In this document: piece by piece, positions 14,782-23,440 of the stretch
How positions within the stretch are numbered: position 1 is the first letter of the stretch
How the letters are laid out: each line of letters begins with the position of its first letter
Virus record (IMG/VR): IMGVR_UViG_3300027734_000287
Coordinates: 1-25,814 of that record
DNA: 25,814 nucleotides
Reading direction: 5' to 3' (one strand)
Origin: a virus
Position numbers and translations under genes: made by a program
Notes under the pieces: model-generated
Told to the model about the DNA's origin: nothing
The model's database searches: none
What the model saw: the letters and a program-made list of their open reading frames with translations, nothing else

Positions 14782-14916
14782 ATGACTCGATTAGAACTGA
14801 TAGCGCAGATTGTAAAAGAAATGACTCAAGATTTAAAAGAAGACAATGATCGCGCAGAAGAGAGAGAGCAACAGCGCGAAGCACAAAAGAAAATGGATGA
14901 CGATGAGATTCATTGA
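14782..14916 (+). CDS. Hypothetical small acidic helical protein
   Basis: A 44-residue protein starting two bases after the previous stop with AAGGGAGCG upstream. It is a single charged helix (MTRLELIAQIVKEMTQDLKE, then Glu/Arg/Gln-rich). It overlaps the start of the methyltransferase gene. It may mainly serve translational coupling, or it may be a small regulator; no function is assignable. Confidence 0.55.
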   Translation: MTRLELIAQIVKEMTQDLKEDNDRAEEREQQREAQKKMDDDEIH

Positions 14917-15982
14917 ACTGTTTGCAGGTATTGGTGGCTTTCGCTTAGGTCTTGAACGCGCAGGTCACCAATGCGTTTGGTCAAATGAAATCGTCGATAG
15001 AGCTAGGCGCATATACGAATATAATTTTAAGGACGCACCCGATGGAAGAGACATTAGAGATATTCAACCCGAAGAGATCCCCGATACAGACCTCCTTGTT
15101 GGAGGATTCCCATGCGCAACTTTCTCCGTCGCAGGTCGACGTACAGGTTTCTCTACAGAGGATACAAGAGGAACTCTCTTCTTTGAAATCTGCCGAATTG
15201 CTGAAGCAAAAAGAATACCGTATCTTTTCCTTGAGAACGTCAAAGGATTGCTTAATCACGACCATGGAAGGACTTTTGGAGTCATCCTCGCTACGTTGGA
15301 TGAACTTGGGTATGACGTTCAATGGGAATGTGTTAACAGCAAAAATTTCGGAGTCCCACAGAATCGGGAGCGAGTTTTTATTGTCGCAAATCTTAGAGAT
15401 AGAGCCCGACCAAAAGTATTTCCTATCGGAGAGTGCTTTGCAGAGAATGATGTCTCGCGCGAAGAAACACAAGGAGAAGGGGAACGGGTTTCAACAAACT
15501 ATTTACCAACGCTCGACGCACACTACTATAAAGGTGGCGGAACTCGAGCAGTCATCGACGAATCAGATGGACATGTTCGCACAACCCAATGGAGACGCAC
15601 TCACTTCAGAGATATAAAGGGTGACTACACCCCTACGCTTACAGCTAACATGGGTACAGGTGGTAACAATGTACCTTACATCGAAGTCAAAGCTGTACTC
15701 ACTCCCGACCGCAAAGAGAAAAGACAAAATGGTAGACGCATCAAAGAACATAACGAACCCTCATTTACAATCACAGCTCAGGATCGTCACGGCGTGTTAG
15801 TAGGCTCATCACTACGAAAGCTTACACCGCTCGAGTGTGAGCGCTTGCAATCGTTTCCCGATGATTGGACGAAGTGGTATAGCGATGGATCGCTCGTATC
15901 TGATAATCAGCGTTATGAGCGCTGTGGTAGAGCAGTCACAGTCAATGTCATTCACGAAATAGCAAAGAGGTTACCACTATGA
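14903..15982 (+). CDS. C5-cytosine DNA methyltransferase
   Basis: About 359 residues from the ATG at 14903 (an ATG at 14897 is an equally possible start). The ordered C5-MTase motifs are all present: I (FIELFAGIGGFRLGLE), IV with the catalytic Cys (GGFPCATFSVAG), VI (ENVKG), VIII (QNRERVFIV), IX (RKLTPLECERLQSFPDDW) and X (GRAVTVNVIHEIA). The target-recognition region between VIII and IX cannot be read for specificity. No restriction partner is present, so it is an orphan enzyme that would methylate phage (and host) DNA, probably to evade restriction. It overlaps the next methyltransferase gene by four bases. Confidence 0.93.
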   Translation: MRFIELFAGIGGFRLGLERAGHQCVWSNEIVDRARRIYEYNFKDAPDGRDIRDIQPEEIPDTDLLVGGFPCATFSVAGRRTGFSTEDTRGTLFFEICRIAEAKRIPYLFLENVKGLLNHDHGRTFGVILATLDELGYDVQWECVNSKNFGVPQNRERVFIVANLRDRARPKVFPIGECFAENDVSREETQGEGERVSTNYLPTLDAHYYKGGGTRAVIDESDGHVRTTQWRRTHFRDIKGDYTPTLTANMGTGGNNVPYIEVKAVLTPDRKEKRQNGRRIKEHNEPSFTITAQDRHGVLVGSSLRKLTPLECERLQSFPDDWTKWYSDGSLVSDNQRYERCGRAVTVNVIHEIAKRLPL

Positions 15983-16620
15983 AGTCATGGACGTTTGAAT
16001 CGAGAGAGGTTGCAAACAAGTTCGATAAACATGTAAGGGAACAGCTCCCTTGGTACGACATGATTACAGACGCTGTAGTTTATATCACGCGCAATTATTT
16101 AACCGAAGGTAACAGAGTTGTTGACATCGGTGCATCGACAGGAAACTTATCAAGAAAACTTTTACCATTAGTGAATGAGCGCAAAGGAAGAGTGTTAGCG
16201 ATAGAAAAAAGTTTACAGATGTGCAACAACATGGTTGGCATGGAAGAAATTGGCGTGATGAATGCAGACATTACAGACATCGATATACCCGAAGCACAAG
16301 TTTACATTTTGTTTTTGACAATGATGTTTATACCTGTAGACAAGCGACAAAGATTACTCGATGCAATTCAAGACAAAGCAAAGGTGGGTGGATGTCTGAT
16401 CATTGTTGATAAGATATGTGATCACAGCGGATACTTTAGTACAGTCATGAAACGATTGACGTGGCATTGGAAGATACAGCAAGGCGCAGAAGCTGAAGAC
16501 ATCATAAATAAAGAAATGTCGCTCGCAGGTGTACAGATTCCTATGGATAATTATTTTCTTGATGATGCAAAAGAATTTTTTAGGATGGGTGAGTTTGCGG
16601 GGTGGGTAATTGAATACTGA
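15979..16620 (+). CDS. CmoA-like class I SAM-dependent methyltransferase
   Basis: A 213-residue protein with a Rossmann SAM-binding core. Motif I is RVVDIGASTGNLSRKL (residues 46-61), an acidic strand end follows in LAIEKS, and then the LFLTMMFIPVDKRQRLLDAI segment. The order and spacing resemble CmoA (carboxy-SAM synthase of tRNA wobble-uridine modification), but the substrate cannot be inferred with confidence. No DNA-MTase (D/N)PP(Y/F) motif is visible, which argues against adenine methylation. Its start overlaps the cytosine methyltransferase stop (ATGA). Other candidate roles are RNA, small-molecule or modified-base methylation. Confidence 0.75.
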   Translation: MKSWTFESREVANKFDKHVREQLPWYDMITDAVVYITRNYLTEGNRVVDIGASTGNLSRKLLPLVNERKGRVLAIEKSLQMCNNMVGMEEIGVMNADITDIDIPEAQVYILFLTMMFIPVDKRQRLLDAIQDKAKVGGCLIIVDKICDHSGYFSTVMKRLTWHWKIQQGAEAEDIINKEMSLAGVQIPMDNYFLDDAKEFFRMGEFAGWVIEY

Positions 16621-17199: not shown

Positions 17200-17250
17200 G
17201 CGTACGATAAAGCGTACGGTACATAATACGATCATACACACGGTGTGTAT
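17200..17250 (+). promoter_or_regulatory. pqqA upstream control region: direct repeats, -10-like box and palindrome
   Basis: The direct repeats GCGTACG (17200-17206 and 17212-17218), a -10-like CATAAT (17222-17227) and a perfect inverted repeat ATACACAC-G-GTGTGTAT (17234-17250) lie in the 85-bp gap before pqqA. No good -35 is seen at the right distance, so the promoter may depend on an activator. The inverted repeat starts six bases after the -10, the same geometry as the leader hairpins of three other units, so it may act as an RNA hairpin, an operator, or both. Confidence 0.5.
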
Positions 17251-17271
17251 AACTTTTAAAAGGATAATATT

Positions 17272-17343
17272 ATGTGGACAACTCCATCAGCTACAGAAAT
17301 GAGATTCGGCTTTGAAGTAACTATGTACGTTATGAACAAGTAA
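17272..17343 (+). CDS. pqqA: PqqA-like pyrroloquinoline quinone precursor peptide
   Basis: A 23-codon gene with an AAGGA ribosome binding site seven bases before the ATG. The peptide begins MWTTPSATEMRFGF and continues with EVTMY. It has the length of classical PqqA (23 residues in Klebsiella) and shares with it Trp2, Pro5, Arg11, Gly13, Glu15, Val16, Thr17, Tyr19 and Asn22. Glu15 and Tyr19 are the residues that PqqE crosslinks and that become PQQ. No pqqB-F genes are in the window, so the host would have to supply the maturation enzymes. The gene stands alone, with its own upstream control region and a strong terminator 32 bases after its stop, like an inserted moron. An increased PQQ supply for methanol or glucose dehydrogenase during infection is an inference. 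Confidence 0.9.
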   Translation: MWTTPSATEMRFGFEVTMYVMNK

Positions 17344-17375
17344 TGGTTATCGTTACAGATTGCTATTAAATTAAG

Positions 17376-17398
17376 GGGAGCTTCGGCTCCCTTTTTTT
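17376..17398 (+). terminator. Rho-independent terminator after pqqA
   Basis: A GC-rich 6-bp stem GGGAGC / GCTCCC closed by a TTCG tetraloop (17376-17391) is followed by seven T residues. This is one of the clearest terminators in the window and isolates the pqqA unit. Confidence 0.92.
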
Positions 17399-17582
17399 GT
17401 GTAATATATATTACTTTTTTGCGTTTAATTATTAAAGTTTCATGCAAATTGTTTTCATTCTTTTCTATATAAATCAATGATTTGAGTGAAAACGGATGTA
17501 AAGTATGCTTTACAGGCAAAAACCGTGCCAACTACCCTAGTTTTGATAAGTAAAATCAATCAAAAATAGTTGATTTAGGCCA
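17399..17582. other. Non-coding AT-rich spacer with clustered inverted repeats
   Basis: No convincing gene was found between the pqqA terminator and the next promoter. The spacer holds a perfect dyad TGTAAAG-TATG-CTTTACA (17497-17514), the 18-base element GCAAAAACCGTGCCAACT (17516-17533, repeated at 18823-18840) and two overlapping dyads, TTTTGAT-N11-ATCAAAA (17541-17565) and AAATCAA-N10-TTGATTT (17553-17576). The last two end just before the -35 of the following promoter, which suggests operators. Confidence 0.6.
17516..17533 (+). repeat. 18-base repeated element, copy 1
   Basis: GCAAAAACCGTGCCAACT matches 18823-18840 at 17 of 18 positions. Both copies lie between a terminator or dyad and an accessory promoter, 49 and 36 bases before the respective -35. 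Confidence 0.75.
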
Positions 17583-17945: not shown

Positions 17946-17955
17946 GGGGATGACC

Positions 17956-18723
17956 ATGAAAACAGTACCATTCGCAGAATTACTAAAAGAAGCTGTAAAC
18001 AAAGAAGGCATTCTATCAACTTGTTACAGCCGTTTCCATCAATACAGCATTGGCAATCAGTTATGGTTATGGGATCAAGTCAGCCAACGTGACGAACAGC
18101 TTGGCCCCGTAGCAACCCTTAAAAAATGGAATGAGCTTGGTCGCAAAGTTAAAAAAGGATCTAAAGCTTACGCAATGCTTTTACCTGTAACAGTACCTAA
18201 AAAGGATAAGGCAGGCAAAAAGATCGAAGGCAAGTTCTCAAGATTCTTTATGCCACGCGATCTATGGTTCACAGTGCACCAAACAGAGGGTGAAGACTAC
18301 GTTGAAACGCAAGTCACACCTGAGTGGGATAAGCAAAAAGCCCTCGAGACATTGCTTATCAAAGAGAATGCTTACGAGTCAGCTGACGGTAATGTGCAAG
18401 GTTACGCAAGCTTCCACAGCTTCGCGATCAATCCTATTGCTATCTACCCACACAAAACAACCTTCCATGAGCTCGCTCACATCGTACTAGGTCACACTAC
18501 TGAGCACACTATGTCAGATTCTGAAACTACCCCACACGATATTCGTGAGGTAGAGGCTGAGTCAGTAGCTTACATCCTATGCTCGATCCTAGGCTTAAAT
18601 GGGTTAGAAGAGTCCCGTGGATACATTCAGCATTGGTTGAAGGATAATCAGATCGATGACAGGTCAGCGCAAAAGATATTCACTTGTGCTAATACGATAC
18701 TTAACGCAGGAAAGGCGGTTTAA
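17956..18723 (+). CDS. ardC: ArdC-like antirestriction protein with zincin domain
   Basis: 255 residues from the ATG at 17956, preferred over the ATG at 17950 because AAGGGGA is at a usable distance only for the later one. The N-terminal domain (about residues 1-125) matches the ArdC ssDNA-binding fold (FHQYSIGNQLWLWDQ, then GPVATLKKWNELGRKVKKGS). The C-terminal domain is a zincin-like metallopeptidase with HELAH at about residues 171-175 and EVEAESVAY near 198-206. ArdC proteins protect incoming DNA from type I and some type II restriction. It lies in the same accessory region as the cytosine methyltransferase, so both may serve counter-defence. Terminated by the hairpin at 18793-18816. Confidence 0.9.
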   Translation: MKTVPFAELLKEAVNKEGILSTCYSRFHQYSIGNQLWLWDQVSQRDEQLGPVATLKKWNELGRKVKKGSKAYAMLLPVTVPKKDKAGKKIEGKFSRFFMPRDLWFTVHQTEGEDYVETQVTPEWDKQKALETLLIKENAYESADGNVQGYASFHSFAINPIAIYPHKTTFHELAHIVLGHTTEHTMSDSETTPHDIREVEAESVAYILCSILGLNGLEESRGYIQHWLKDNQIDDRSAQKIFTCANTILNAGKAV

Positions 18724-21125: not shown

Positions 21126-21154
21126 TTGACTTATCCCTATTGTCCGTTTACATT
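21126..21154 (+). promoter_or_regulatory. Possible promoter for a near-leaderless terS transcript
   Basis: TTGACT (21126-21131) and TACATT (21149-21154) are separated by 17 bases. The predicted start point (about 21161) is only a few bases before the terS ATG at 21165, and no ribosome binding site precedes that ATG. Confidence 0.4.
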
Positions 21155-21164
21155 CTATTGCATT

Positions 21165-21737
21165 ATGTCAGAGACAGCTATCACAAAGAAGAGAGTCGTA
21201 TCATCTTACGAAGATAAGGATGAAGAGACTCGTGCGTCAAGTAAACAATCTAACAAGGGCTCGACTGTAGGTAACAAGGGTGGAAGACCTACGCTCTATA
21301 GTCTTGAGATTGCTTTGGAGATATGCGATAGGATTGCTGACGGTGAGAGTTTAGTTAAGATTTGTAGCGATGCGAAGATGCCGAAGAAGACTGCGGTGTA
21401 CGAGTGGCTGTTGCGTCACAAAGAGTTCGCGGAGATATATGCGCGCGCGAGAGAAGATCAAGCTGACACATTGGCTGACGAGATTCACGCAATCAGTGAT
21501 GAGCTACCACAACAGATCGTTGATGACAAGGGTAAGACTCGTTATGACTCAGCGTACGTTCAATGGCAAAAGAATAGAGTGGACGCTCGCAAGTGGGTGG
21601 CCGCGAAACTTAAACCTAAGAAGTATTCAGACAGGATCGCACACGTTGGTGACAACGAATCAGACGCGATCAACATCAATGTCAACATCTTTGACGAAAT
21701 GATTAAGAACCTCGAACTAAAGAGACAGGCCAAATGA
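21165..21737 (+). CDS. terS: Terminase small subunit
   Basis: 190 residues from the ATG at 21165. An in-frame ATG at 21126 would lie in the promoter and adds an unlikely N-terminus. The pattern GRPTLYSLEIALEICDRIAD, then ESLVKICSDAKMPKKTAVYE and WLLRHKEFAEIYARAREDQA, is that of the phage terminase small subunit family with an N-terminal helix-turn-helix. It recognises the packaging site and recruits TerL, which is three genes downstream. The first 40 residues are polar and probably disordered. The neighbouring repeats at 21010-21070 could also be part of the packaging recognition region. Confidence 0.85.
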   Translation: MSETAITKKRVVSSYEDKDEETRASSKQSNKGSTVGNKGGRPTLYSLEIALEICDRIADGESLVKICSDAKMPKKTAVYEWLLRHKEFAEIYARAREDQADTLADEIHAISDELPQQIVDDKGKTRYDSAYVQWQKNRVDARKWVAAKLKPKKYSDRIAHVGDNESDAININVNIFDEMIKNLELKRQAK

Positions 21738-21826: not shown

Positions 21827-22002
21827 GTTTCGAGAAACGTAAGGCTGACGCGTTCCTAACGACCAAGCTTAAACAAGAGATTAAGTCATATGAGCTAGAC
21901 GATGGTCAGCTCGATGAGAAGCAGTACGCAAAGATAAGAAAGCTCGTAGGTTACGAGTTAGATAAATCGACAGGAGAGGTCGTAAAGTTATTTGATGAAT
22001 GA
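21823..22002 (+). CDS. Hypothetical 59-residue protein between terminase genes
   Basis: Starts in an ATGA overlap and ends eight bases inside terL. It is a charged helical protein (FEKRKADAFLTTKLKQEIKS, then a Lys/Glu-rich second half). No family was recognised. Its position between the terminase subunits suggests a packaging-associated or structural small protein, by context only. Confidence 0.6.
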   Translation: MSFEKRKADAFLTTKLKQEIKSYELDDGQLDEKQYAKIRKLVGYELDKSTGEVVKLFDE

Positions 22003-23440
22003 TGTTGTTGATTTACTTAAAGACAAAGAAGTAGAAGCGCAGTTTAAATCGCTACCCATTGCTAAACAGATAGCGATAGCGTGGCGCATGAAGTGGTTAA
22101 CGCAAGCGCACGATCACCAAATACTTCCTCACGGTGATTGGGCGATATGGTTACTATTAGGTGGTCGAGGTGCGGGGAAGACTAGAACGTCTGCTGAGCA
22201 GATAGGATGGTGGGCTTGGGAACAGCCCAACACACGATGGTTAGTATCCGCACCGACATCGATGGACGTACGCGGTACATGTATCGAAGGTGAATCAGGA
22301 TTGCTTAACGTGATACCTGAGATCCTTATTGCAGACTATAACAAGTCATTGCTCGAGATCAAGCTGACGAACGGATCATTGATCAAAGGCATATCAGCGT
22401 CAGAACCTGATCGATTCCGCGGTGGACAGTATCACGGCGCGTGGCTAGATGAGTTGGCGGCGTGGGATTACTTACAAGAAGCATGGGACATGATTCAGTT
22501 CTCAGTGCGGTTAGGTAAAGAGACAAGGATCATTGCATCAACGACACCACGTCCTAAAGACTTGATCGTTGACTTAGTAGGAAGGTCTGATGACGGTAGT
22601 GGTGAAGTCGTTATGACAACCGCGTCAACGTACGCGAACATAGACAACTTAGCACCAAGCTTTCAACAACAGATATTGCAGTACGAAGGAACGAAGCTAG
22701 GTCGACAAGAGATCTATGCCGAACTGATTGACCCTGAAGAGGGTGGCATTGTTAAAAGAGATATGTTTAAGTTATGGGACGCGAAGAAACCATTCCCTAA
22801 GTTTGAATACATCATACAGAGTTACGATTGCGCATACACAGAGAAGACCATCAATGACCCGACAGCGTGCTTAGTCTTCGGCGTGTTCAAACCGATGGAT
22901 GGCCCAATGGCGGTGATGTTGATAGATGCATGGCAAGAACGCATGCAGTACCCTGACCTAAGAAAGAAAGTGCAGGAAGAGTATGAAGTTAGTTATGGTG
23001 CAGATAGCGAGTCTGACACAGGAGAGTTTGTCAAAGGTAAGCGAGTTGATCTCATCCTTGTCGAAGATAAGGCGAGTGGAATCAGTCTCATACAAGATAT
23101 GCAACGGGCGCATCTACCTGTGCGAGCTTACAATCCCGGTAGAGCGGACAAAGTACAGAGACTTTCCATTGTTGCAAACATTATCGCTCATGGACGCGTG
23201 TGGATTCCCGAGTCATCAGTACGACGTGGATATGTTCGTGATTGGGCCGAGGGCTTTGTGTCGCAGATATGTTCGTTTCCTGAAGCTACGCATGATGACT
23301 ATGTGGACGCGTGTACGCAGGCGCTTCGGTATCTAAGAGACGCAGGCATGTTAGAGATTGACCCGAGACCTTACGACGCATCAGAAGATTATGCTGACGC
23401 TTATGAATACAAAGAGAGAGTCAATCCTTACTCCGTGTAA
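21995..23440 (+). CDS. terL: Terminase large subunit (ATPase/nuclease)
   Basis: 481 residues from the ATG at 21995, preferred over the TTG one codon upstream. The ATPase domain has Walker A LLGGRGAGKTRTS (core at residues 56-63), Walker B AWLDELAAWD (Asp152, Glu153) and the coupling motif IIASTTPRP (about 179-187). The C-terminal RNase-H-like nuclease domain starts near residue 270 with SYDCAYTEK (Asp278), continues with LILVEDKASG and ends with HDDYVDACTQAL, supplying the acidic metal ligands. It drives DNA into the procapsid and cuts the concatemer. The portal gene is not in the window, which is unusual for an adjacent gene. Confidence 0.95.
   Translation: MNDVVDLLKDKEVEAQFKSLPIAKQIAIAWRMKWLTQAHDHQILPHGDWAIWLLLGGRGAGKTRTSAEQIGWWAWEQPNTRWLVSAPTSMDVRGTCIEGESGLLNVIPEILIADYNKSLLEIKLTNGSLIKGISASEPDRFRGGQYHGAWLDELAAWDYLQEAWDMIQFSVRLGKETRIIASTTPRPKDLIVDLVGRSDDGSGEVVMTTASTYANIDNLAPSFQQQILQYEGTKLGRQEIYAELIDPEEGGIVKRDMFKLWDAKKPFPKFEYIIQSYDCAYTEKTINDPTACLVFGVFKPMDGPMAVMLIDAWQERMQYPDLRKKVQEEYEVSYGADSESDTGEFVKGKRVDLILVEDKASGISLIQDMQRAHLPVRAYNPGRADKVQRLSIVANIIAHGRVWIPESSVRRGYVRDWAEGFVSQICSFPEATHDDYVDACTQALRYLRDAGMLEIDPRPYDASEDYADAYEYKERVNPYSV

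Follow-up and report, generated by a model that had tools for sequence, protein, structure and literature searches.

The window, as we call the whole 25,814-nucleotide stretch analyzed here (a 25.8-kb IMG/VR record), carries a genuine gene for PqqA, the peptide from which the cofactor PQQ is made. It is highly probable, in our assessment, that this is a functional stand-alone pqqA on a Methylophilaceae phage, and that it supplements the consumable PqqA and thereby lets the host keep making PQQ for methanol dehydrogenase. We favor this reading because the encoded peptide is identical to host peptides, the gene has its own ribosome binding site and terminator, it is under purifying selection, no PqqE passes its cut-off in the viral records searched, and the gene is conserved within the phage lineage.

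The pqqA gene and its signals

The gene comprises 23 codons and a TAA stop and is accompanied by the following elements.

17272..17343, plus strand: pqqA coding sequence, product MWTTPSATEMRFGFEVTMYVMNK; the crosslink is predicted to join Glu15 and Tyr19
17259..17264, plus strand: Shine-Dalgarno-like AAAGGA, ending 7 nt before the ATG
17373..17398, plus strand: intrinsic terminator, AAGGGGAGC-TTCG-GCTCCCTTT and then a T run (hairpin 17373-17394)
17234..17250, no strand assigned: short inverted repeat ATACACAC-G-GTGTGTAT in the pqqA leader, just 5' of the ribosome site

All residues that the original prediction had named as typical of PqqA (W2, P5, R11, G13, E15, V16, T17, Y19, and N22) are present in the translation, and the crosslink core, E15-V-T-M-Y19, fits the pattern E-V-T-x-Y. 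The peptide passed both curated PqqA models with bit scores about twice the cut-off: 41.3 bits for Pfam PF08042 (cut-off 21.1, E 1.4e-10) and 38.5 bits for NCBIfam TIGR02107 (cut-off 20, E 6.9e-10). PF08042 matched none of 14 control genomes. Alignment found identical peptides in Methylophilaceae; at two such host loci (L173 and L182), the DNA differs from that of the window at 9 and 8 bases, respectively, and the differences are synonymous. The predicted identity as PqqA was confirmed. Since the peptide is identical to host peptides, its binding by PqqD and crosslinking by PqqE are likely. Searches with the peptide returned no PHROGs family and no PDB match.

The ribosome binding site and strong terminator anticipated by the prediction were both borne out. 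AAAGGA stands at a good distance from the start codon, and a Shine-Dalgarno-like motif precedes viral pqqA in 116/116 copies. The terminator stem has 9 pairs and begins ∼30 nt past the pqqA stop; the 62 nt downstream of that stop gave a folding z of -4.1, with no shuffle equally stable. The stem occurs once in the window and is retained in five of six aligned relatives. Within 130 nt, a terminator was found for 52/113 viral pqqA copies, 91/120 host pqqA copies, and 17/600 other ORF ends at the same loci, counts that are descriptive and come from non-independent sequences.

Upstream, the inverted repeat is a possible operator or leader hairpin, judging from its sequence. Related pqqA leaders (L342, L343, L347, and L348) differ in sequence and still form short hairpins; a conserved leader structure was nevertheless unconvincing, the leaders as a group being weakly structured. 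We recognized no sigma-70-like site on the plus strand just upstream of pqqA, and an Rfam search gave no match. An antisense reading was also considered. We rejected it because an in-frame stop interrupts the opposite strand of pqqA, although a longer minus-strand ORF in another frame overlaps the gene, and because variation in pqqA falls mostly at third codon positions when read on the plus strand.

The phage lineage and other carriers

The contig is viral, in line with the phage origin originally proposed, and encodes both terminase subunits and replication genes.

14846..15982, plus strand: C5-cytosine DNA methylase (PF00145, 1.6e-81)
15979-16620: methyltransferase near phrog_4752 (tRNA methyltransferase; 3.3e-45), adjoining the DNA methylase
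17950..18723, plus strand: ArdC-like antirestriction protein with a metallopeptidase-like C-terminus (PF08401, 4e-11; phrog_7245, 7.8e-16)
21126..21737, plus strand: terminase small subunit (phrog_1482, 7.4e-41)
21992..23440, plus strand: terminase large subunit, used as lineage marker (PF03237, 7.1e-24)

Other genes encode a DnaB-like helicase, a primosomal protein, a RusA-like resolvase, and an ejection-protein-like product. Host contamination was rejected on account of the terminase and replication genes and of the synonymous differences from host loci with the identical peptide; pqqA is a host-like metabolic gene within a genuine viral genome, as expected of an auxiliary metabolic gene. 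When positions 5.5-21.9 kb of the window (16.4 kb) were compared with 120 Methylophilaceae genomes, every genome gave a match. Among the matches listed, with two candidates scored per genome, only the pqqA region at ∼17244-17418 (with the ribosome site and sometimes the terminator) was hit, at 76-92% identity. PqqA was present in 60/60 sampled Methylophilaceae genomes, at 1-12 copies (mean 4.6); in published counts, genomes hold 3-12 copies of pqqA and mostly a single set of pqqBCDE (PMC4109929).

Close relatives of the large terminase are present in IMG/VR. Within the phage collection, a spring-water phage matched it best (64% identity), followed by Caulobacter GB2A-like phages (41%), and because these best matches lie elsewhere, the window phage is, by its terminase sequence, of a lineage separate from the cultured methylophages. 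PqqA was found in 5/5 terminase relatives with ≥83% identity and ≥4.8 kb of upstream sequence (7/7 including two with shorter upstream sequence) and was absent from the 17 tested relatives with 69-77% identity and the same upstream coverage; this survey was limited by coverage, most other relatives being short fragments. One relative in the 69-77% range with less upstream coverage (L299) does carry PqqA. PqqA thus marks a low-GC terminase clade, with a GC content of 39-44% in carriers and 47-58% in tested non-carriers, a split that fits pqqA tracking the host. From PqqA, GC content, and clade, we infer a Methylophilaceae methylotroph as the host of the window phage. A methylotroph host had been predicted, and the known hosts of carriers are indeed Methylophilales methylotrophs.

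The gene recurs in related phages, where the original prediction had asked to look for it, and in unrelated ones. An IMG/VR scan for the core GFEVTMY returned at least 120 stretches, 120/120 of which encode PqqA; this motif fixes residues 13-19, Glu15 and Tyr19 included, and the conservation of these two is therefore partly built in. Outside the motif, Trp2, Pro5, and Arg11 are kept in all 116 aligned viral copies. Terminase relatives matched by the HMM only also keep Glu15 and Tyr19; L345 carries V16I and L346 carries M18L. Nine phage records of cultured Methylophilales/Methylophilaceae hosts carry PqqA (P19250A, Venkman, MEP301, MEP401, MEP402, and four Melnitz isolates), as does one spring podovirus; taxonomy names further Methylophilales phages beyond these nine, and others outside this set include MEP431-434 and HIM624-A. 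The expectation that so short a gene would escape automated annotation held in the phage records examined, where there is either no feature or a hypothetical protein called over pqqA on the opposite strand (L003, 2067-2195; L006, 3961-4056). Publications on cultured methylophages in the openly licensed literature do not mention a phage pqqA.

Five viral contigs (L011, L020, L025, L031, and L035) carry a divergent PqqA, whose sequences suggest phages of non-Methylophilaceae hosts. A search with the alphaproteobacterial PqqA motif found three contigs, one with a plausible PqqA: an IMG/VR contig (L259) encoding the alphaproteobacterial-type MKWSAPIVQEVCVGMEVTSYESAEIDTFN, with no PqqE on the record, which could be a prophage edge. 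When phage lineages were grouped on shared protein content, 21-41 groups resulted, one of them large and mosaic; the number depended too strongly on the threshold and was set aside. The record of "Acinetobacter phage MD-2021a" (L007, CAKLQF020000010.1) was excluded, as it looks like a mislabeled bacterial chromosome; in it, pqqBCD and a gene for a radical SAM protein lie beside a polyphosphate kinase gene.

Substrate without pathway, selection, and rival explanations

PqqE was above cut-off in 0/38 and 0/50 viral records (0/88, window included) and in 6/7 host genomes; the sole host lacking it is a 0.9-Mb single-cell-type assembly that is probably incomplete. Of the PqqB, PqqC, PqqD, and PqqE set, the search covered PqqE, and its absence means that no complete PQQ biosynthesis operon (pqqBCDE beside pqqA) is present. 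A PQQ alcohol (methanol) dehydrogenase was above the family cut-off in 1/38 viral records and is absent from the window. Because PqqE occurs in none of the 88 records and the dehydrogenase in one of the 38, the pqqA phages, on their gene content, bring the substrate and not the pathway, as had been proposed for the window phage. The one record with the dehydrogenase (G010, 72 kb; L050, 34049-35731) also encodes PqqA and resembles published Baikal viruses.

Repeated re-capture from hosts could mimic purifying selection, and we therefore sought phage-specific signals. A whole-gene dN/dS of 0.09 was discarded because the search motif had fixed codons 13-19. Outside the searched core, dN/dS was 0.16 for 106 distinct viral copies and 0.21 for hosts. 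Arg11 is encoded by AGA in 33/116 viral copies and 0/120 host copies (the host search pattern allowed AGA; these counts, too, are descriptive), and dN/dS within the viral AGA group was 0.15. With dN/dS of 0.15-0.16, a phage-only codon, and conservation within the clade, the evidence is that selection has kept pqqA in this phage lineage.

These results bear on whether pqqA is a non-adaptive passenger, a short, multicopy, self-contained gene often captured from hosts and soon lost. Hosts do hold many stand-alone pqqA copies with a ribosome site and terminator; however, purifying selection, the AGA codon with its low dN/dS, and the presence of pqqA in every close terminase relative with coverage all argue against a mere passenger, which we regard as quite improbable. 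The same abundance of a short, conserved host gene could make it an integration site, so that the phage copy would be an attP core matching host pqqA and not a gene in use. A search covering the tyrosine family of integrases found none in 28 viral records, window included; the DNA is no more than 76-92% identical to that of hosts and differs at synonymous sites; and several carriers are phage isolates that lyse their host. Such a site is barely credible.

The peptide might instead act as a decoy or brake that ties up PqqD/PqqE or in some other way holds back PQQ production by the host, since a PqqD-binding peptide without turnover would inhibit and the phage has no accompanying PqqE. An inhibitor would be expected to have its reactive Glu/Tyr changed or missing, or to have drifted away from the substrate, whereas the window peptide matches the host substrate letter for letter and the relatives matched by the HMM only retain Glu15 and Tyr19, and we consider a decoy very unlikely. 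PQQ has several uses, and PQQ from the phage peptide could serve outside methanol oxidation, in redox protection or with another PQQ dehydrogenase; the window itself lacks a methanol dehydrogenase. Against this, carriers whose hosts are known infect methylotrophs, and pqqA accompanies a PQQ alcohol dehydrogenase in one viral record, a pairing also described from Lake Baikal. We hold this other destination for PQQ to be unlikely.

Proposed function and comparison with known systems

In the published pathway, PqqE joins Glu to Tyr within PqqA with the help of the chaperone PqqD; PqqF/G, PqqB, and PqqC then carry out the remaining steps to PQQ (PMC10906245). Under substrate supply, the reading that we prefer, the peptide would be produced from the replicating phage genome during infection, bound by host PqqD, and crosslinked at Glu15-Tyr19 by host PqqE; host PqqF/G, PqqB, and PqqC would then cut and oxidize the crosslinked peptide to PQQ. 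The replicating template would yield more of the single consumed component, and PQQ would keep methanol dehydrogenase active, sustaining carbon and electron flow during phage replication. Because each PQQ costs one PqqA, raising the template dosage of this substrate would be a phage's best investment in the pathway; hosts are organized along similar lines, with multiple copies of pqqA and mostly a single pqqE. Both PQQ and methanol dehydrogenase probably persist for a long time, and the gain within a single infection is for that reason not obvious.

It is fairly probable that supplying the consumable precursor alone is a general strategy of Methylophilaceae phages, gained or kept in several unrelated lineages, with pqqA near-universal and host-diagnostic in methylophages and with substrate dosage, not an enzyme, as the contribution. 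Phage auxiliary genes usually encode enzymes; here, the phage appears to provide a stoichiometric substrate peptide, which would indicate that the PqqA level is a limiting step in infected methylotrophs. Since pqqA has been overlooked in the isolate genomes examined, current estimates of how viruses affect the oxidation of methanol in lakes and coastal seas are probably too low. The gene offers a 69-base marker for spotting methylotroph phages, and cultured phage-host pairs already exist for direct study, such as OM43 strain H5P1 with Venkman or Melnitz; the medium described for this work includes PQQ, which might hide an effect of phage pqqA.

The idea of a phage PqqA is itself already known (PMC7678222; PMC13188868); what is new is its breadth, its stand-alone form, and its absence from isolate annotations. 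A virus-encoded PqqA was reported in 2020 in the Lake Baikal population VP_266, together with methanol dehydrogenase, and was likewise proposed as an auxiliary gene for Methylophilaceae methanol oxidation (PMC7678222). However, VP_266 is T4-like and encodes the dehydrogenase, whereas the window phage belongs to another lineage and has PqqA alone. Metagenomic viruses of reservoir sediment, described in 2026, also include pqqA, which the available part of that report lists with pqqE and pqqD among phosphorus-cycle genes and interprets as phosphate solubilization, with no tie there to methylotroph phages (PMC13188868). The cultured phages P19250A, Venkman, MEP301, MEP401, MEP402, and Melnitz share with the window a PqqA gene of 23-24 codons, but in the records examined theirs is unannotated. 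Host PqqA of Methylophilaceae (TIGR02107/PF08042) is of equal length, identical in peptide at two host loci, and likewise stand-alone with a Shine-Dalgarno motif and terminator; the window copy differs in lying on a phage genome without PqqE, in its synonymous changes, and in its AGA arginine codon.
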